Shown: positions 6,331 through 64,000 of the stretch, in pieces
How the letters are laid out: the number at the start of each line of letters is the position of its first letter
Position numbering within the stretch: position 1 is the stretch's first letter
NCBI RefSeq assembly: GCF_964204865.1
Contig: NC_135263.1
Coordinates: 18,831,426-18,895,425, forward strand
Direction: 5' to 3'
From: Styela clava
Taxonomy: Eukaryota > Chordata > Ascidiacea > Stolidobranchia > Styelidae
Length of the DNA: 64,000 nucleotides
Translations under genes and position numbers: made by a program
Notes under the pieces: generated by a model
Databases searched by the model: none
What the model saw: only the letters and a program-made list of their open reading frames with translations
Told to the model about the DNA's origin: nothing

Positions 6331-6440
6331 CCGGTGTCCATTACATCTCAATTCTTGGACCCACATTGTTTTCGTATTATCCATCACCGATCCTCTGGTT
6401 ATTCTCATTTGCAAATTGCTTGTTTATGCTGATGATGCCA
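6331..6440 (+). pseudogene. Decayed non-LTR retrotransposon reverse transcriptase fragment
   Basis: Across shifted frames the sequence shows a block like the RT palm pattern GV-x-x-x-SILGPTLF, followed by KLLVYADDAILH. The second block contains the YADD catalytic motif of LINE reverse transcriptases. The two blocks lie in different frames, and a stop follows shortly after the YADD block. Sequence to about 6540 (LNGW and later KNM) may continue the thumb region. The fragment is a broken relic, with no LINE ends visible. Confidence 0.6.
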
Positions 6441-19028: not shown

Positions 19029-20781
19029 CCCTGTAGCAGTTACCGGTACCGGTAGGCATTGGCGCATGTTCTATTCCATCAATCCCAGTACTACTGTATC
19101 GACACTAGTGTACGGCTGTACGGTGCCAGAATTTGCTACTGTAGGGACGGTACCGGTAAAATCATGTCCAAATGAGAAAAACAATTCAACCACATTTTGC
19201 ATTTGGTTTTGTGTGCGTCATATGCAATACTGATAAATGTCACTAAAAGACGACAATTAGACTATTATCTAAAACTACTAGTAATATGGCAAGTTTATCG
19301 TTTTGTATCAATTTCACATGGCTACCATCTGTTTTGCTTTGATTTCTTCTGTTGTGCACTAAATAACGGCACATGTTCAGTTGTTAGCCATGTTTCTCAC
19401 CGTCTTACAATTTTAACTAAATAATAGGACCCATGTCATGTCTATTGATTATGATTTGAAACACAGATTTTCTGTAAGGTATGCATTTCAGGGCTTTCAG
19501 GTACGGTACCGTTAATGCATCGACCATCCTGCAGTCCTGTTGTATCGAGGCTACCCAAATGGCTCATGTGCAGATTCTCAATAAACATTTTGACACATTT
19601 TAGTAGGCCTATAATCATATTCAATACCGGTACAATTAAATCACCTGATGACACCACTAAACACTTGAAAAGTAGTATTTTTTTCGAAATTTGTCTGTAA
19701 AATTGTCAACGAAACAAATAGCTGACAAATGTCAAAAATTGAATTTAAAACACACACTTCTTCAGTCTTTTGACTGCAGAGAGACTGAACTCGAAAGGTG
19801 GTTGAATGAAAATGGCATTTTATTCAAGTTTAAATTTTACTCTTTTAGATGCATAGATCAGAAGAATTTGTGCTAAAGAGTTGAGTGATGTGGACGCCTC
19901 TGCAAAAAAAGTTTTTTTAGTCTTCATCATATTTACATTTAAAACGTATAAGCATTGGTTCATGAATCCAAATTAATCGCAATATTCGTCAGCCTTCACA
20001 TGACCAAAATTGCAGTATTTTTTTCTAAAAACTCGAATGCTACAGTAAATTTTTTTTTCTTTTGTAAATTGGATTTTTGATTGCGCTTGCTTTTACTGTC
20101 TTTAGCACCGTTGCACCGTTCTGATTTGCCGGTATGGAGACCAAGACTAGCTCGTGAACGACGGGTTTGCAATAATTTTCATAGATATCTATCAATGAGG
20201 GGGCTATTTTTGGAATCAGAGAACTGTGCCATACTGTACTTCCACGCACTTTCAGTAGGACACACTTTCCAAATTCTTAGAATGTCCCTCTGTTTGGTTC
20301 GATAAAACAAACACTCCATGTGTCTCACAAACGTGGGGCGTCTGGCTGGCACCGCAGATGCATCATATCGCGCCATGCTTGACTTGATAATAATCTAAAT
20401 TAATCATGGCCGTTGAGTGAGTTTTTACTAAAAACTCTCAAATGCCACGGTAAAAAACTTTTTTGGGGGAAATTGGATTATTTTTTAACTGCCAAATTCA
20501 ACGATTTAGTTTTTTGCGCAACTTCATTTTACAGTATTCTTGCAGATTTGAGGAAAAACAATGTCCAGACTTCCTGTGTTTGGTCATCGGCAAATTGAGA
20601 TGCCCTGAAATGAGCCAATGTCTGTCGATCTGGAAAGTGTACCGTACTGACTTTGGGGTGGTGATATTGTGATACCAATGTTACAGGATGATTAATGTTC
20701 TTTACTTACTCTCATACAGAATTATCCTAGTTCAAAAAAGCTTTTTAACTGGAAGACCTGGTGAATTAACTGTTTGCTAAG

Positions 20782-23700
20782 ATGGAGTTATCAGGAATTC
20801 GGTTTCCTCCTGGCTCCAAATCAATTTCTGCTGATATGAACCCTTCTGAGATTTTGAAGTCGTTGAAACGATGTTGTAAGTTTTTCTCTCAGTTGGAACA
20901 GGATCAAGATGAAGAAAAGAAGATCTATTTACCTTTTTGTCGATACATATCAGAGAGTGATCTCGTTCATGAAATAACTGATGCTAATGCAAGGATTCAT
21001 TTAGGTTGTATTTTTGCTGATATTTTTCGCTTGCATGCCCCAGAAAATCCATTTCCAGGAGACAAATTGAAAGATATTTTTTTGTTTTTAAATGAACAAT
21101 TGAGTCACTTACGAGATGTTAAATCTACCTTGTTTTCTAAAGCATACCATATATTGGAAAATGTGGCAACTGTGAAATCCTATAACAGTTGCTTGGAACT
21201 TGACAATGAATCAGCGGATGAAGTGTTTTGTGGACTTTTCAAAATTTTCTTTAGCATAGTTAATTCCTCACATGATGACCAACTGAAAGCACACATGCTT
21301 GATATAATGACTTGCATAGTTTCTGAAAGTGGATCTGTATCACAAAGATTGTTCGACAATGTTTTTGAGTGTCTTTTGGAGAAAACTAAAAAAATGAATC
21401 CCTCAGCATATGAACTTGCTCGTGAACTACTGAGGAAGACTGCTCACAATGTTGAAGGAGTGATCATGCTATTCTTTCAAAATATCCTATTAGGTGATCA
21501 CCAGGATTCAAATCGTTTATCTAGGAGTTGGCCGCAACTAATAACAGAGTTGTATAAAATTGCTCCTACTCTTCTTGTCAACACAATTCCTCAGATTGAG
21601 ATGAAACTCAGAACCGATAATGTTCCTGAAAGACTTCAAGTTGTTCGATTACTAAGCAGAATGTTTTCAGAAAAGGACTCGAGCCTTTCTTCGCAGCATA
21701 CTGCACTCTGGAACAGTTTCCTCTTAAGATTCAATGACATAGATCCACAAATCAGAGCAGTGTGTGTTAACTTTTGCTCAGATATGGTAATTAATCACGG
21801 TACTGATGATGCAAAGGGGAGAGAGGTTTTATCTAAATTGGTGGAATTATTGAAACTAAGAAGGCATGACACGGAAGAAGGTGTAAGAATTGCAGTTGTC
21901 ACTACGATCCGAGGAATCGCTATGAATGATCTTAGATTAGTAACTGATGAATTGCTGGATTTCCTCAGAGAAAGATTGCTTGACAAAAAACACAAAGTTC
22001 GTGAAACTGCGATCAGAGCTGTTGCCGATATCTACAAAAAGTTTTCTGCCAGTACGAAATCACCTTTGATATATCAAAGGAAGTTGGGAATTTTCAGAAG
22101 TCAGCTTCTTCGTGTGTATTACACCCAAAATCTGGATGATTGCATATTGTTAGAACGCATTTTAGTGAGCAGTCTTGTGCAATATAGTTTGCCTGACGAA
22201 GAGAGAATGAAACAACTATTTCAGTTGTACTGTACGGCAGACAATCATGCTGTCAAAGCGCTTGTGGAAATGTTCAAAAAGCAGAAAATCTTGAAAGAAG
22301 CACTAAAAGACATTTTAAATTCTCTTTCTTTAAAGGATAGTGAACAAAGGAACAAGAAATTGTGGCCAAAAATATTAACATTATCTTCCCATTTGCAGTC
22401 ACCAATGCAGGCTCGTGAACATATAAAGAAATTTGTAGCAATTGTTCTCGATGATGCTAAGATTCGACAGTGGTTGGAGTATATTACTGCAGAGCAATAT
22501 ACTTGTCAAAAGGTCGCGCTTGCTGTCCGAGATATTTTAAAAAAACTTGACACAGATGGTGTTACAAAGGTGGTACGCGGGACTGTGCAGCAGCTACTCG
22601 AAAGAGTTGTTCTTGTGACAGTTCTAATTGATGCACCCTCAATGCTGACATTGACAAAACTTGCTCGAGATTTGCTAGATGGAATTTCTGACATTGAGAA
22701 CTTTGAAAGTTATTCAGTAAAAGAAAGAGGAGTAGATCTGCTTCATGTATTAGCGAAGCATGATCCAAACTTATTTGCGGACAGTGAATGCTTGGAGATT
22801 TTTCTGTCAATGCTGAGAGGAAAAGATGAGTTTGCTGTTGAGAAAGCACTGCTTGTTCTTTTGAATACTTGCCCTATCATTGAAGAAAAATTTACCACAA
22901 TAAGAACTATCTTGCTGCCTGAACTCAAAGCAATTGCTAAAACAGGCACACCAAAACAAGCAAAATATGCTGTTCGCTGCATTAATTTAATGACATCTGT
23001 ACGAGAAGCTCCTCTTATGCAGGTATTTCAACAATGCAAAGAGATGGCGAGTGAAGATACTGCACACGGCCTGAATTTACGAACATTGCTAACAACTTTA
23101 GGGTGTATTGCAGAATGTTTGCCAAAACAAGCTGGGAAAGAACTGAAAGGCTTCATTGCTACAGTAGTTGTGAAGAAGATCATCATGAAAACTAAAGCAA
23201 AATCAAGTAGAAAGAAAAAAGAATTGAAATGGCTGGAAAAATCTGAGATTAGTGATGAAACTGCAACTAAACTTGTAGCAATGAAATGCATGGTACGGTG
23301 GTTGTGTGGATTAAATTCAAATGAATTAGATTGCTGTGGCTCAACATTGAGACTTCTACAACATATGATGCACAATGATGGGGATCTCATGAAATGCGGA
23401 CAAATATCCAAACCTGATATGGCGCATTTGAGGCTGAAGGCAGCGTTTTGTGTCTTACGAATTGCTAGATGTGATGGCTATAAAGATTTGATTTCACCTT
23501 CTGTGTTTTTAGAACTTGCCATTCTTCTAATGGATGATCTGCGTGAAGTACGCCAACAGTTTTTGGCTAAACTTCATCAAGCATTGTTCAAGTTCCAAAT
23601 ACATATATCTTTTATGTCATTATTTTGTGTGATTTCTCAAGAAAAAGTGAAGGAACACAGAGATCATGGTACAGCATTGTATATTCAGCTGGTGAAAAGA

Positions 23701-24852
23701 TATCGGGATGTCAGCAGACGGAGTTCAATGACTTCTAACTACATGCACTATGTTATGCCTGAATATGTTCTGTCATTCACTATACATTTGCTCGCCAATG
23801 ATCCCGACATTCCACTGAAAGAGGAAATCCCTAAACCCATTCTTTCCAGACTTAAAGAATCTCTCAATTTCATGTTAGAACCACTGCTAACCAGAGACAA
23901 CCCAGAAAGTTTCGGTTTCATAAAGCGTTTGGCTGAATTGGTCAAACGTACAAAATTTCAGGATGATTCTGACAATACTTTTCGAAACAAAACAATGTAT
24001 CGAGTATGTGATCTTGTCTTGCAGTCTGTTTTGATAAAATCGGCACAATATGCTATTGGTATCGTTGAACCTCCAGATGATGCAATGAAAAAATTTCTAC
24101 CGGCTCGATTGTACACAAAGCTAACGTCTTCTGAAAATCCAACCAATTACCTTCCAGAAGCATTTCAGATTGAGGCCAAGCTTGTTCCAACACGTAAAGC
24201 AACATCTGGTGAAAGTAAAAGTAAATCGAATGCAGCTAAAAAATCAGCAAAAGTACCTCTTAAAATTGTTGCTGTTACTAAAGTTGCTGTAACTAGCCCA
24301 ACAAAAAATAGGAATGCGGTACAACATTCATCAAGTTCAACAAGTAAATCTTTGACGACGTCTTCCAGTGATTCACAAAGAAGAGGGTCAAAGAGAAAAG
24401 TAAAACATCAAGATGAGGATTATTTAAGTTCAGATGAAGAAAGCCTTGCAACAAAAAAGACTAAGTTGATGCAAGCCAGAAAAACACCTAAAAAAGATCA
24501 AAAATCTACTAAGTCGAAGGAAAACCAGCCTATCGTAGAGCCGTCACTGGAGGTTTCGTCTCCATCTCAAAAAACACTTTCTACACCATCAGAGGATTCA
24601 TCGATGTTATCATCTCCAAATTCATCGGTGACAGACTCCCCTAGGCCAAAACGAGCATCTGCTGGTAGTAAGATGTTTGATTACCTGAGATCCACTAAGC
24701 GTACACCAACAAAAGTACAAAAAAGTTCAGAAACAAAGAAATTAACTGTAAATGGCATTGCCGACTCCAAATCCAAAAAGAATTTAGTTGTTGTATTGTC
24801 AGAAGAAACATCGGATGCCAGGAGGCCCTCGAGAAATCGTAAAATTAAATAA
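20782..24852 (+). CDS. PDS5: PDS5 sister chromatid cohesion factor
   Basis: A 1356-aa HEAT-repeat protein homologous to PDS5A/B, which binds cohesin in the nucleus and controls its loading, release and acetylation together with WAPL and sororin-like factors. Recognisable family blocks are LHAPENPFPGDKLKDIF at residues 84-100, VRLLSRMFSEKDS, LWNSFLLRFNDI, the stretch ERLLDKKHKVRETAIRAVAD, and STLRLL near residue 853. Residues from about 1145 to the end are a Lys/Ser/Thr-rich low-complexity tail with basic clusters (RRGSKRKVKH, KKTK) typical of PDS5 C termini. The length is close to vertebrate PDS5A (about 1337 aa). The ATG at 20782 gives a start consistent with the family. The ORF is uninterrupted over 4,071 bp, although PDS5 genes usually have many introns; whether this reflects intron loss or an old retrocopy is unresolved. 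DIS3L2 follows 1.2 kb downstream on the same strand. Confidence 0.93.
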   Translation: MELSGIRFPPGSKSISADMNPSEILKSLKRCCKFFSQLEQDQDEEKKIYLPFCRYISESDLVHEITDANARIHLGCIFADIFRLHAPENPFPGDKLKDIFLFLNEQLSHLRDVKSTLFSKAYHILENVATVKSYNSCLELDNESADEVFCGLFKIFFSIVNSSHDDQLKAHMLDIMTCIVSESGSVSQRLFDNVFECLLEKTKKMNPSAYELARELLRKTAHNVEGVIMLFFQNILLGDHQDSNRLSRSWPQLITELYKIAPTLLVNTIPQIEMKLRTDNVPERLQVVRLLSRMFSEKDSSLSSQHTALWNSFLLRFNDIDPQIRAVCVNFCSDMVINHGTDDAKGREVLSKLVELLKLRRHDTEEGVRIAVVTTIRGIAMNDLRLVTDELLDFLRERLLDKKHKVRETAIRAVADIYKKFSASTKSPLIYQRKLGIFRSQLLRVYYTQNLDDCILLERILVSSLVQYSLPDEERMKQLFQLYCTADNHAVKALVEMFKKQKILKEALKDILNSLSLKDSEQRNKKLWPKILTLSSHLQSPMQAREHIKKFVAIVLDDAKIRQWLEYITAEQYTCQKVALAVRDILKKLDTDGVTKVVRGTVQQLLERVVLVTVLIDAPSMLTLTKLARDLLDGISDIENFESYSVKERGVDLLHVLAKHDPNLFADSECLEIFLSMLRGKDEFAVEKALLVLLNTCPIIEEKFTTIRTILLPELKAIAKTGTPKQAKYAVRCINLMTSVREAPLMQVFQQCKEMASEDTAHGLNLRTLLTTLGCIAECLPKQAGKELKGFIATVVVKKIIMKTKAKSSRKKKELKWLEKSEISDETATKLVAMKCMVRWLCGLNSNELDCCGSTLRLLQHMMHNDGDLMKCGQISKPDMAHLRLKAAFCVLRIARCDGYKDLISPSVFLELAILLMDDLREVRQQFLAKLHQALFKFQIHISFMSLFCVISQEKVKEHRDHGTALYIQLVKRYRDVSRRSSMTSNYMHYVMPEYVLSFTIHLLANDPDIPLKEEIPKPILSRLKESLNFMLEPLLTRDNPESFGFIKRLAELVKRTKFQDDSDNTFRNKTMYRVCDLVLQSVLIKSAQYAIGIVEPPDDAMKKFLPARLYTKLTSSENPTNYLPEAFQIEAKLVPTRKATSGESKSKSNAAKKSAKVPLKIVAVTKVAVTSPTKNRNAVQHSSSSTSKSLTTSSSDSQRRGSKRKVKHQDEDYLSSDEESLATKKTKLMQARKTPKKDQKSTKSKENQPIVEPSLEVSSPSQKTLSTPSEDSSMLSSPNSSVTDSPRPKRASAGSKMFDYLRSTKRTPTKVQKSSETKKLTVNGIADSKSKKNLVVVLSEETSDARRPSRNRKIK

Positions 24853-58402: not shown

Positions 58403-60826
58403 CATTTCCTGTATTTAGTAACAGGTATAGATTAAGAATGGCGAATGTCAGTAAGACTATTATGCCTGGTGCTTCACTACTACTGCTGTAATTTGTGGAC
58501 GAATGTGAGGTAGACATTCTCCTAACTCTCTAAGAGAGGACCCCCCCCCCCAATAATTTCGTCTATAATTAAACACATGTTGTTTCCGCTTTACGAAAAA
58601 GTGCGATAGTCGAGCGCGCACAATTGGTTATTTAAGATTTACCGATATTATAACTGTTATCTTACAATAATTGTACACGAGAGCGCCTTCAGAGCACCTT
58701 GCTTATTGCAAAAGATGCGCGGCTGCACCGGTAAGACGTGATCTCGAAACGCATTTATGATCACGCGCTTCGATTTTGCTCGCCCTTCCGCGTTCCACGT
58801 TATGCCCTTATTAGTATCGCAGGTATTCTCACCGTTGCACAATCTAATTATTTTTTGTTACAATTTGATTTTTCCATTGCCAAAATCATTCAATAGTGTT
58901 ATTGTCAGCACTTGCGACAGAAATAAAAAAGGCTAACAAAATGTATTTCTTTTAAACAATTGAATATTATTATCGATAAAAACACTAAAATGGTTTATGG
59001 TATAAACCGCTGGACGTATCTTTTCACGTTATGAATTTCGTGCAAGGCCCTAGCATAATATATTGATGGCAATGATCATAACATTTACTTTGACGAAATG
59101 CTTATTCGACTTTTCAGACTGCAGAAACTATTCGAAAAAGGTAACCGTTTTTGTTTTCAAGATATGGAATAATCGTCAATTCTACCACGGATATTTACGA
59201 ATAACTGAATAGTTACTAATTTTGAAACGTGGCAGAGGTGTTTTTTAAAATATCAAATTTACAAGAAATCTAGTGAAGTTGCCCTAGCCAAAATAGCATA
59301 TATGAATCCTGAGACCATTTAAGCAAAGTATTTCAAGTTGATGAATATATATATATATATATATATATGAACATATGTATCTAATACGGTAGTTAAGTAG
59401 ACATACCGTGCTAAAAAAGCGATAGTTATGTAGACGGAAAATTGGGTAGACATTTTCCTGTCCGCTCAATAATTCCACGTTCCATAATTAAAACGTTTTG
59501 CGTTTTTTTTTTATCTGAAATCTCTTTTTCTCTGATAAAACAGTATCAAAAATAATATGTTCTTTCAATATTTTTAAAATATCTGCATATTTTCGCCAAC
59601 TTTAAGGGGACAGTAGTTCTGCTGGTTTATAATCAACGGGTATAATTTTCGTACATCAAGTGGACATTTTGTTTATGAAAAAATCTTTTAATTTCTCTGT
59701 ATATGTCTTTACGATTTTTGCAGAGTAAGTTTGATAATTTTGATACAATACCCAGGCAGAATATGAAAGTCGTCCGTTCTGTTTTTGCAATACAAGCTCA
59801 ATAAACTGAATGAGACCTCAATTCACAACCGTACTAAAGAGGCTTTGTTTCGCAATAGTGAAACTGTCGGGTTGAGATCAGTCGCCAAGAACTTTACCAC
59901 GTTTGCCGTTTCGTTCGCAAGTAGCCTGGACGCCGTGAGGGGATTGGGATCTTCATGAGTGCGTGATTGCAGGAATTTAGATAAAAAGAAACAGTTGTGT
60001 TAGTTAGGCCATGGGCCGAAATCTGTAAAGCGCTTAAAAAATCGAGTTCGTGGTGACTCTTGAGGGGGGACCTAAATTTTGGTGGGTTAGAAAGCTAAAA
60101 GCTCAATTAACTAAACATAAAAAGTTGACATCTCTAAAGTGGAGCATTACTTCACAATTAACGATGACGTCACGTGCCCTCACAACCCATATCTACTATA
60201 TAATATTCTACTTAAACCTAGGATTTGCACGTTGAATACCGAAACCTTTGACGGATTTGTAAAAAATTAGGGGGTAAGTTTTTGTATCAGATGACGTCAC
60301 AATTTGCTCTTTGGTCAAATGTGACGTCATAACTGCTTTTCAACATTTATTTTTCTGTTATTGTGCGGAGACTAAGTAATCTGCAATGACCATCCCTGCT
60401 GTTTCCTATCGATACACACAGAAACGGATATTTCAAAACTAGTTTTTTATGGCATATTCTTCCGTAAAAGTAACAAAAATAATGTGAAAGTAAAATTAAA
60501 TTAAACTTTCAAAAACACTATGTTATGAAAAGAACACAAAATGAGTACAGAGAGAGCAAGAGCGCGTTTGGCCAAAAATACTAAAAAAACAAAAGTATTT
60601 CTCATGTCCTAATAATTATGTAATCAGCGTCACCTGCTATAAAATCTACTATGACAATTGTAAGAATTGCAAAAAAAAAGCAATTAAAATATTAAAAATG
60701 AACAAGCACGCGGCTAATATGGTGCATATATCACTATTGAATATGTTTAAATAAAAATAATTCGTTCTAACTCGTATAATGTATATATATCACTATTTTA
60801 GTTGTTTGGGCTGGACTTCATGAAAG
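58403..60826. other. AT-rich region between accessory elements
   Basis: No gene is seen. It holds a C-run near 58542-58552, an (AT)n microsatellite at about 59346-59368, a sequence at 60006-60060 resembling the GGGCCG...AACGC terminus of the neighbouring element, and three TGACGTCA palindromes at 60165, 60292 and 60322. Confidence 0.5.
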
Positions 60827-61588
60827 TTAAAACCATATTTCGATATTAATATAATCGTCTTCCTCACGCATGACATCCGCGTTGCTACAATCGTTGCAAC
60901 TGCACAAACTGGAGCATGAGAACCCTGACTTCACACAAGGGCATTTGGTGTTCTTGCAAATTCAATTTGGCGCATCTGCATTTAGAGTGGTTTAGCACTG
61001 AGTTTGGGGCAATTTGTTTTGAAATCCATTTAATACTTATAATTCCATCATTTACAATCCATCCGTGGCCATCAGGATTTGGAGCAGATATAAAATTTTG
61101 TAGTGCTCTCCTGTGTATGACACACTGGTAGTTTGCACGCGCTGAATGGAGTACGATAGCATCCTCAGATGGGGGCATACAGGGTTCGTCTAGCGATTTC
61201 TTTTGAAATATTTCAAAACGTACTTTGTTAACAGACATCTCACCAGAGTAACCATAAAGAGTGCAAACAAACTTTGAAAGTTGAATATAAATATTTTCAG
61301 GAATGTACCACTGATCCCCTAACTTTGAAAAAGCCTATCTAAAAGCCTATATCGCATACCCTTCACTTTTCCCTTTCCACCGAAAGCGGTAACGGTGTCA
61401 CATCCGCTAAATACATGTAGACTCGGAATAGCTTTACAAATGACATTTCCGAAGTGGTTAACCATCGTTCTGATTGATAACATCCTGGACTGCGAACCAC
61501 TTCCAGTTAAAAAATACGAATTACATCCAATATCGGTAGAATGTGCCAATGACAATATCAATACATCGGTATCAGAACTATTAATAAT

Positions 61589-61791
61589 GGTTCCATTACA
61601 TTTGAACCCACGTACATTTGAACCCATGACAATTGCACCTGTATGCTATTGCACCTATGGATTTTTTTTTGTTTCACGGATAGTTAAACCCATACTAACC
61701 CTAACCCATGGGTTTTAGCACCCGCATATAGATTAAACCCGTGTATATACGCATGGGTTCAAATGTACATGGGTTCAAATGTACGGTCACC
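61589..61791. mobile_element. 203-bp MITE with 9-bp target duplication, copy 1
   Basis: The ends are GGTTCCATTACATTTGAACC and the inverted GGTGACCGTACATTTGAACC, with terminal repeats of about 40 bp built from repeated ACATTTGAACCCA units. Perfect 9-bp direct repeats ATTAATAAT flank it at 61580-61588 and 61792-61800. A 9-bp duplication fits the Mutator (MULE) superfamily. It interrupts the VIIIN-SSDTDV stretch of the host relic. Confidence 0.92.
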
Positions 61792-62166
61792 ATTAATAAT
61801 AATTACGTCGTTAAATCCCGATGAACATTGCTTTGCGTGTAATAAAAGCTTGGTATCTGCTTCTTCGTGATCGTTGACCAAAGAAGGCTCGCCCGGTACG
61901 CAAAGCTGAAATTGATGCAGTGACACTCAGAATCGTGGCCGATAAAAATTTTCATATTTCCCGCAGGACGAGGAGGTTGATAATTCGGAGCAAACAAAAT
62001 TAAACATTCCACGAGAGCCTCCTTATTCATGCCGGAAAACAAAAACTTTTTAAACTGTTTCGGCGTTTTTTGTTTTAATTCTATTATTTTGATGATTTCG
62101 CTTTCATTCGATGATCGGGGACACCTTTCAAAATTTTTTATGCTAGTATCTGGATAGGTGTCACAC

Positions 62167-62369
62167 GGTTCCATTACATTTGAACCCACGTACATTTGAA
62201 CCCATGACAATTGCACCTGTATGCTATTGCACCTTTGGAATTTTTTTTGTTTCACGGATAGTTAAACCCATACTAACCCTAACCCATGGGTTTTAGCACC
62301 CGCATATAGATTGAACCCGTGGATATACCCATGGGTTCAAATGTACATGGGTTCAAATGTACGGTCACC
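62167..62369. mobile_element. 203-bp MITE with 9-bp target duplication, copy 2
   Basis: Same length, same termini and same orientation as the copy at 61589, with near-identical interior including CTAACCCTAACCCATGGG. Perfect 9-bp direct repeats GTGTCACAC flank it at 62158-62166 and 62370-62378. It splits the VCDT codons of the host relic; the two halves rejoin in frame after removal of the element and one duplicate. Confidence 0.92.
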
Positions 62370-64000
62370 GTGTCACACACAAAGTCAACCCTGTTACAAT
62401 TGTAAGACTTTGCCATATTAATTATTCTGACGAAAATCAAATTCAAGAGTGTTCCAAAAGTTTCCGGAATATTATTCAACGATTGCAGTAAAGCCATACC
62501 ATCTATTACGAGAGCTGCATTCAATGGATATGATTTGACTAATACTTCTGGTACACTATTTTCCAATTCGTGCAAGAGCCTAGCTTTATTAGTTCTCACC
62601 GGCGTTCCGTTTGTTGATCCAATAGATGCGGGGATAGCAGTAAATGGATATTCTAGCATTTCTTGGAGTTCTATATTTTTCGTTTTCCCAATAAGTAGAA
62701 GCCTATAGAAATTATCTTCTGATTTTTTAGAGAAGTGTGGTACTTTTTCGTTAATTTTGGCGCTACCCAAAGCAAATGTTCTTGATTTTCATTGGAGTAA
62801 ATATACTTACAGTTGAATTAGCAAGAATTCGGTTTCGGCAAAATAAATCTGCGTTGCTTTTTCCCAGTCTACATGCGTCTTCCATACCCATTTTAATAGC
62901 ATTTGATGCCACGGACCCCGAAGAAAAGTTCTAAACCCAACGGGTCGGTCATGAAGGTCACCGTATCGACTATTGATTGCACGTTTTTTTGTTCTCTGAT
63001 TGAATTAGCAGAATCAAGGTCTTTGCATTGTCGTCTAGTAGCATCTTTTCCAGTCATTTCTCTGCATGCCATAGAAATAAGAGCGCGTTGCCTGTTACAG
63101 TCCTTCGCGACCCCTTATCGATTGCTATGAATCTCTGTCGTTATTTCCCGTGTTTATTTCAATTTTTCATATAATTCCGTTATACACTTTTGTGTTGTGT
63201 CTTCATTGATTCTTGCATGATAAAAATAAATTATCTGAATCTGCATTGATGGTGTGATAGGAGCCATCTATTTACAGCATATTTGTTTAAAGATAGCCCA
63301 CGAATTCCGCCTCGGGTTTTAAAATCTCTGTTCAAAGTTTGCTCAATTATTTGATCGCAGGCAATTTGGCTGAAACCATATTGAGCATGATGCTGTACAG
63401 AAAAAATACCCTGCTTTAAATACTGATATATTTAAAGATGACTTGATGACTAATTTTTCATTTCGGACAAATAGACTGAGACATATCTCGCATAATTGAT
63501 ATGATCATACGCAAAAAAACATGGTAGCATTTTATAAAGTGTAGCAAGATGGAGATGTCATAAGCCGTCTCTAGTATCACGAATAAATTGCAGCAGAAGT
63601 TCAACCATATCGATATAAGATATATATATCGATATAACTCCATAAACTGAATGTTTTATTCAACTTGCTCTGATGCTCTATAAAATACTGGTAATCCGCC
63701 AGTAGACTTCTCACTTCCTCGCTTTCACATATTTGTTTGAATAATTGAGGGTCTGTATAAGCATTATTCAGCTTTGATGCCAAATCAAAAACCTTGGCTT
63801 TGCTTTGCAAAGATTGGTTTTTAATGAATACGTTCCACCGCATCCTATGCAACGCTTCAAACACGAGTTTGTGGGCTCGAATACTTCTATTGTAATGGCG
63901 ACCTTGCATAATGCTATTAATGGAACCTGGAGCAACAACACGGGATTCTATTAATATATCGGATAGACCAAAGCTTTCGTATCGTTTTCCAATTACTGAA

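Follow-up and report, generated by a model that had tools for sequence, protein, structure and literature searches.

A decayed, 5΄-truncated copy of a dispersed DNA transposon in the genome of Styela clava, most likely of the AcademX lineage

In this work, we have analysed a window of 64,000 nucleotides (the whole stretch G000:C18:18831426-18895425) from the 376.6-Mb genome of the ascidian Styela clava. Frames of the window gave the Pfam names PDS5, Dis3-like ribonuclease, cyclin domain, acyl-CoA oxidase and LINES; the PDS5 homologue (20770-24852) is a single open frame of 1,360 aa, and since its PDS5 domain is covered nearly whole in one frame, this part has no intron. The subject of this report is a decayed coding region on the minus strand, for which a first-pass annotation had proposed a series of ordered conserved blocks. 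These blocks are indeed present in order, scattered over all three minus frames: VIDGMALLQ, HEEADT, SSDTDV with SGCDTVTAFGGKGK in the same piece, PPSEDA and ANYQ, and a cysteine tail (Table 1). Their order is not due to chance, since L012, the longest relative found in the genome, has the same blocks in a single frame of 1,185 aa (ORF2) and a second protein family, 42% identical, retains them. Our results show that the feature forms the 3΄ portion of a DNA transposon with dispersed copies.

The boundary that had been drawn at position 60827 has to be moved, as the element continues to its 3΄ inverted end at 60005-60021 and, on the other side, for 687 bases past the right edge of the window. 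The copy thus spans from 60005 to a point beyond the window that corresponds to 64687; homology ends there, at position 2250 of the L012 element, and the 5΄ end of the copy is missing. Over 4,050 aligned bases (gaps excluded) its identity with L012 is 93.7%; with a dS of 0.206 to L012, the window copy is the older one. Three large insertions (two 203-bp MITEs and one stretch of 158 bp) interrupt its frame, as do several smaller indels and internal stops. Without its 5΄ end and with its frame broken, partly by the two inserted MITEs, this copy is unable to transpose now.

Table 1. Features of the transposon copy in the window (positions are those of the window)
Feature	Position	Strand	Basis
3΄ terminal inverted repeat, TAGGCCATGGGCCGAAA read on the + strand	60005..60021	-	no mismatch; shuffles would give 0.02 matches
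3΄ non-coding part of the transposon	60022..60829	-	blastn alignment with the L012 element as far as element position 6374
C-terminal CXC (Tesmin/TSO1-like) cysteine tail	60830..60961	-	Pfam TCR; LIN54 chain 5fd3; L012 1134-1169
Coding piece KLGDQWY...PPSEDA...ANYQ...CRC, between nuclease core and CXC tail	60888..61334	-	tblastn, L012 ORF2 997-1149, 82%
Nuclease-core piece: SSDTDV (FEN1 D179/D181-like), SGCDT...GGKGK (FEN1 D233-like)	61322..61588	-	FEN1 alignment of the L012 counterpart
203-bp MITE in the coding region; 9-bp duplications 61580-61588 / 61792-61800 (ATTAATAAT)	61589..61791	+	Flanks
Coding piece with HEEADT (FEN1 E160-like Glu)	61795..61926	-	FEN1 alignment
Coding piece beginning TYPDTSIKNFERC, after the FEN1 D86-like Asp; overlaps the 61795..61926 piece in a different frame	61810..62157	-	
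Second MITE copy; 9-bp duplications 62158-62166 / 62370-62378 (GTGTCACAC)	62167..62369	+	Flanks
Coding piece: VIDGMALLQ (FEN1 D34-like), VDFVCD (FEN1 D86-like)	62370..62788	-	L012 666-807, 93%
Coding pieces between the transposase and nuclease regions (RQRALISMACREM..., SSGSVASNAIKM...)	62766..63090	-	
158-bp stretch, not in L012; insertion into the coding region of the window copy	63091..63248	.	
Part of the presumed DDE transposase region (SVIGKRYE..LIES..GRHYNRS..HKLVFEAL ... GFSQIACD..EQTLNRD)	63249..64000	-	Homology continues to the 64687 equivalent

The two MITE copies of the window have the ends GGTTCC...GGTCACC and are 98% identical. The same MITE is present at no fewer than 30 further loci with 95–99% identity, and perfect 9-bp duplications were found in 17 of the 22 copies read (20 fetched plus the two in the window). 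An introner was considered for 61589-61791 and rejected, as no frame-keeping splice pair was seen by eye. The 158-bp stretch reads CAA on either side, and most of its length has no other genomic match among the matches listed.

Copies of the element were found at a minimum of ten loci on seven contigs of the same genome (C2, C5, C6, C8, C9, C10 and C18), of which at least nine lie beyond the window (two each on C5 and C18 and one each on C2, C6, C8, C9 and C10); these counts are lower bounds, 40 of 2,616 candidates having been scored. The broken frame and this dispersal, as opposed to single-copy syntenic loci, bear out the earlier reading of a decayed member of a repeated family. In L012 the repeated unit is 6,374 bp long with sharp ends, and both ends read TAGGCCATGGGCCGAAA inwards, forming 17-bp inverted repeats that start with TAGGCC. 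Ten loci were fetched, including that of the window, and three of them (L012, L013 and L017) showed both exact ends; these three carry the same terminal inverted repeat at both ends, and all are flanked by identical 3-bp duplications (AAT, AAT and CAA, respectively). Three such matches would be expected at random about once in 262,000, a somewhat generous figure that assumes equal base use, with the boundary placed with the flanks in view. The remaining loci showed the 5΄ end only (L014), the 3΄ end only (L016, L018 and the window copy) or no exact end (L015, L019 and L020), and the 3΄ end of the window copy is common to five other loci (L012, L013, L016, L017 and L018). Terminal inverted repeats, a fixed-length target-site duplication and a dispersed multicopy distribution define a cut-and-paste DNA transposon, and this is what the element is: 6.4 kb when complete, with TAGGCC inverted ends and 3-bp target duplications. 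The proposal of a mobile-element enzyme, and with it the flanking inverted repeats to be looked for, thus proved correct. One locus, L019 (C18:18988000-18997999), lies about 100 kb from the window copy, shares its 5΄ truncation point and is 97–98% identical to it in parts, which suggests that a copy already truncated was duplicated locally.

Intact homologues, which the first-pass annotation had proposed to collect, exist in two families. In the family of the window copy (family A) the whole frame is kept by L012 only, among the ten loci read, with all the blocks of the window copy in one frame; upstream of it lie two shorter frames (164 and 229 aa) with cysteine/histidine motifs visible by eye, for which Pfam gave nothing convincing. 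A protein search of the genome gave at least 51 matches (39 of 234 candidates scored). Among them is the second family (B), at 38–46% identity, which has uninterrupted frames of 1,427–1,431 aa on C6, C10 and C13 and whose 3΄ side ends ...GGCCTA. The blocks WDNNDF.EET..G.GTTHNTNGI, GYLPVIDA, VFDQAIY.KAQ.IRW, LRLGEFHT and EALHR, together with the acids of the nuclease core, are invariant across one A and three B proteins. Within families, dN/dS lies between 0.42 and 0.77 in 14 of 15 comparisons, the remaining value of 1.28 being based on six changes; the comparisons share reference copies, several rest on few changes, and dS between the families is saturated. More distant relatives of the transposase region, 30% identical, occur at G000:C16:18542436-18543641 and C14:14824571-14825578, pointing to further families in the same genome.

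The invariant WDNND, FDQ, LGEFHT and EALHR blocks, together with a weak match to Pfam DUF6589 on L012 241-490 (E=1.2e-4, 21.4 bits, below the cut-off of 27), suggest that the N-terminal half is a DDE-type transposase. DUF6589, which we take to be the Academ transposase, was absent from the Pfam scan of the second-family frames (L045 and L047), and a paper search found no literature on it; the DDE residues of L012 and the B proteins are likewise assigned by assumption. At the other end of the protein, the tail piece of the window copy matched Pfam TCR (E=7.6e-4, 20.2 bits, cut-off 23.5) and MSL2-CXC (E=8.4e-4, below the curated cut-off), while six other pieces of the window copy scanned with Pfam gave no family. 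In L012 the TCR/CXC match covers 1134-1169 (E=2e-3, below the cut-off), and in the second family it has an E of about 0.02 with no DUF6589 beside it. A profile built from the four proteins found LIN54 (5fd3) in the PDB at E=0.014, its only match at E up to 10. The CXC tail of the first-pass annotation is therefore kept in part: as the TCR scores (20.2, 18.7, 15.6 and 15.7 bits) are all below 23.5, we call it CXC-like and not a Tesmin/TSO1 CXC member by the Pfam test. By analogy with LIN54, such a tail should bind DNA, perhaps the ends of the element.

Acidic residues placed like those of a PIN/FEN active site had also been proposed, and for FEN1 this placement was borne out. With the FEN1 catalytic residues numbered as we presume them to be, D34, D86, E160, D179, D181 and D233 align with D763, D806, E909, D934, D936 and D992 of L012, so that six of the seven FEN1 catalytic acids fall on acids invariant between the two families; the seventh, E158, falls on H907, adjoining the invariant E908. 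Six of the 13 conserved acid columns of FEN1 coincide with invariant acids, a number reached in none of 200 column shuffles (largest 5, mean 1.2), in an alignment made with the full-length hhalign setting (mact 0.01), which was picked after the default setting aligned only 38 columns around GCD, and with the caveats that the aligner rewards acid–acid matches and that the shuffled alignments were shorter (190 versus 263 columns). The overall profile scores did not stand out. Against FEN1 alone hhalign gave 18.4, where an unrelated cyclin piece scored 18.9 and 100 shuffles went up to 23.5; against seven FEN1 sequences it gave 17.4, with 150 column shuffles giving a mean of 14.5, a 95th percentile of 18.9 and a maximum of 28.1, and a reversed control 16.7. 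Pfam XPG_I had six matches across the genome, at five places that we read as FEN1, XPG, GEN1, EXO1 and an Asteroid-like gene, and none in the transposon copies; with two block HMMs made from host FEN-class genes, the transposon proteins were outside the 12 best among 251 frames and 4,000 shuffles. Of what marks a PIN/FEN superfamily member, then, the ordered catalytic acids are found, and no known member gives a significant profile match; a PIN/FEN identity is plausible but short of proof. AcademX elements encode an XPG-type nuclease. Leaning also on the nuclease published for this lineage, we consider a FEN/PIN core probable.

The search for relatives was extended beyond this genome. In IMG/VR no relative was confirmed from the window piece, from L012 ORF2, from an alignment (A1) or from two back-translated patterns, the 9, 3 and 41 pattern-matching stretches of three scans all failing tblastn, and the phage records gave none. 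The single contig-search match (L001) was rejected: it comprises 22 residues surrounding one 8-residue pattern, and we take its frame for a MarR-like regulator. A FEN1 peptide search of IMG/VR confirmed none, the four stretches with a FEN1 pattern being read as chance. With two single pieces the PDB sequence search gave only matches at E 0.7–1.8, judged irrelevant, and with L012 ORF2 it gave none; an NCBIfam scan gave no match.

As to the kind of transposon, target duplications of 3 or 4 bp are reported for AcademX and of 9 or 10 bp for AcademH, tied to the encoded nuclease or helicase, respectively (PMC10045372), and a bivalve survey gives 100 curated Academ elements with a mean of 5,565 bp (PMC10294476). 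Because the duplication length, the presumed nuclease and the element length agree with the published description, against which the element was set by description, we conclude that the window holds a decayed, 5΄-truncated cut-and-paste transposon whose most likely place is in the AcademX lineage of the Academ superfamily. The first-pass annotation's best candidate for an undescribed system thus gives way to a known kind of transposon, and nothing found supports either an undescribed system or a role in genome defence.

A host gene family, coding for a nuclease used in genome defence and amplified by segmental duplication, would also have open frames in two families and dN/dS values mostly below 1; moreover, L019 and the window copy, so close together and with a common truncated start, indicate that some local duplication occurred. 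However, the copies have sharp ends with inverted repeats, their 3-bp duplications lie in flanks that are unrelated, and a whole frame survives at a single one of the ten A-family loci read. On the inverted ends and target duplications we reject this explanation, and the chance that it is right appears very remote.

The two other readings accept a transposon and differ in what it encodes or where it belongs. DUF6589 and XPG_I give weak evidence or none, and Academ was compared by description only, as would be the case if the element belonged to another or unnamed superfamily of DNA transposons, also with 3-bp duplications and a nuclease-like core; but 3-bp duplications with a nuclease are what has been described for AcademX (PMC10045372), and the length is near the bivalve Academ mean (PMC10294476), so that another superfamily seems improbable. 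Similarly, the acidic blocks might form not a FEN/PIN centre but a second domain of the transposase, with a metal-binding or structural role; the lack of a significant profile score to FEN1, XPG_I or the block HMMs is consistent with this. The order and identity of six of seven catalytic acids, and the nuclease published for AcademX (PMC10045372), argue against such a domain, and we hold it to be unlikely.

How might the AcademX-like element move? Along the long protein, a presumed DDE transposase would be followed by a FEN/XPG-like nuclease core and then by the CXC-like tail. In the likely cycle, the tail and the transposase would bind the transposon ends, which the DDE centre would cut and join to the target, while the other strand would be cut, or flaps at the ends trimmed, by the FEN-like core. 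A single polypeptide uniting a DDE transposase with a FEN/PIN nuclease and a DNA-binding, CXC-like tail, in which the FEN-like centre, and not the DDE centre, cuts the non-transferred strand or trims flaps at the transposon ends, is a tentative proposal that we consider rather doubtful as a whole. If true, excision by two nucleases would be unlike that of hairpin or single-centre DDE transposases. The presence in one genome of two families with uninterrupted frames could serve to test why a nuclease accompanies the transposase. Furthermore, repeat proteins so far unannotated gain a name and a likely mechanism as transposon proteins, and should be masked and not tallied as expansions of host gene families.

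Among known proteins, the tail resembles LIN54 and the Tesmin/TSO1 CXC proteins in its cysteine pattern, which aligns weakly with one LIN54 CXC repeat (5fd3), but differs in having one repeat only and in scoring below the Pfam cut-off. With FEN1, XPG, EXO1 and GEN1 the element protein shares the co-aligned catalytic acids and a GCD..(S/A)F.GKGK motif that resembles GCDY...GIGPKRA, whereas it has no significant profile match to them, and its D806–E909 spacing of 103 residues exceeds the 74 between D86 and E160 of FEN1. AcademH would belong to the same superfamily if the Academ assignment holds, but is described with 9–10 bp duplications and a helicase (PMC10045372); the element has 3 bp, and Pfam found no helicase family in the scanned frames of L012, L045 and L047. 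That duplication length would also cover the 9 bp of the MITE, and nothing else links the two. The closest likeness is to AcademX: the element has target duplications of 3 bp, within the 3–4 bp given in PMC10045372, probably a nuclease core, and a length of 6.4 kb, near the 5.6-kb Academ mean that PMC10294476 gives for bivalves.
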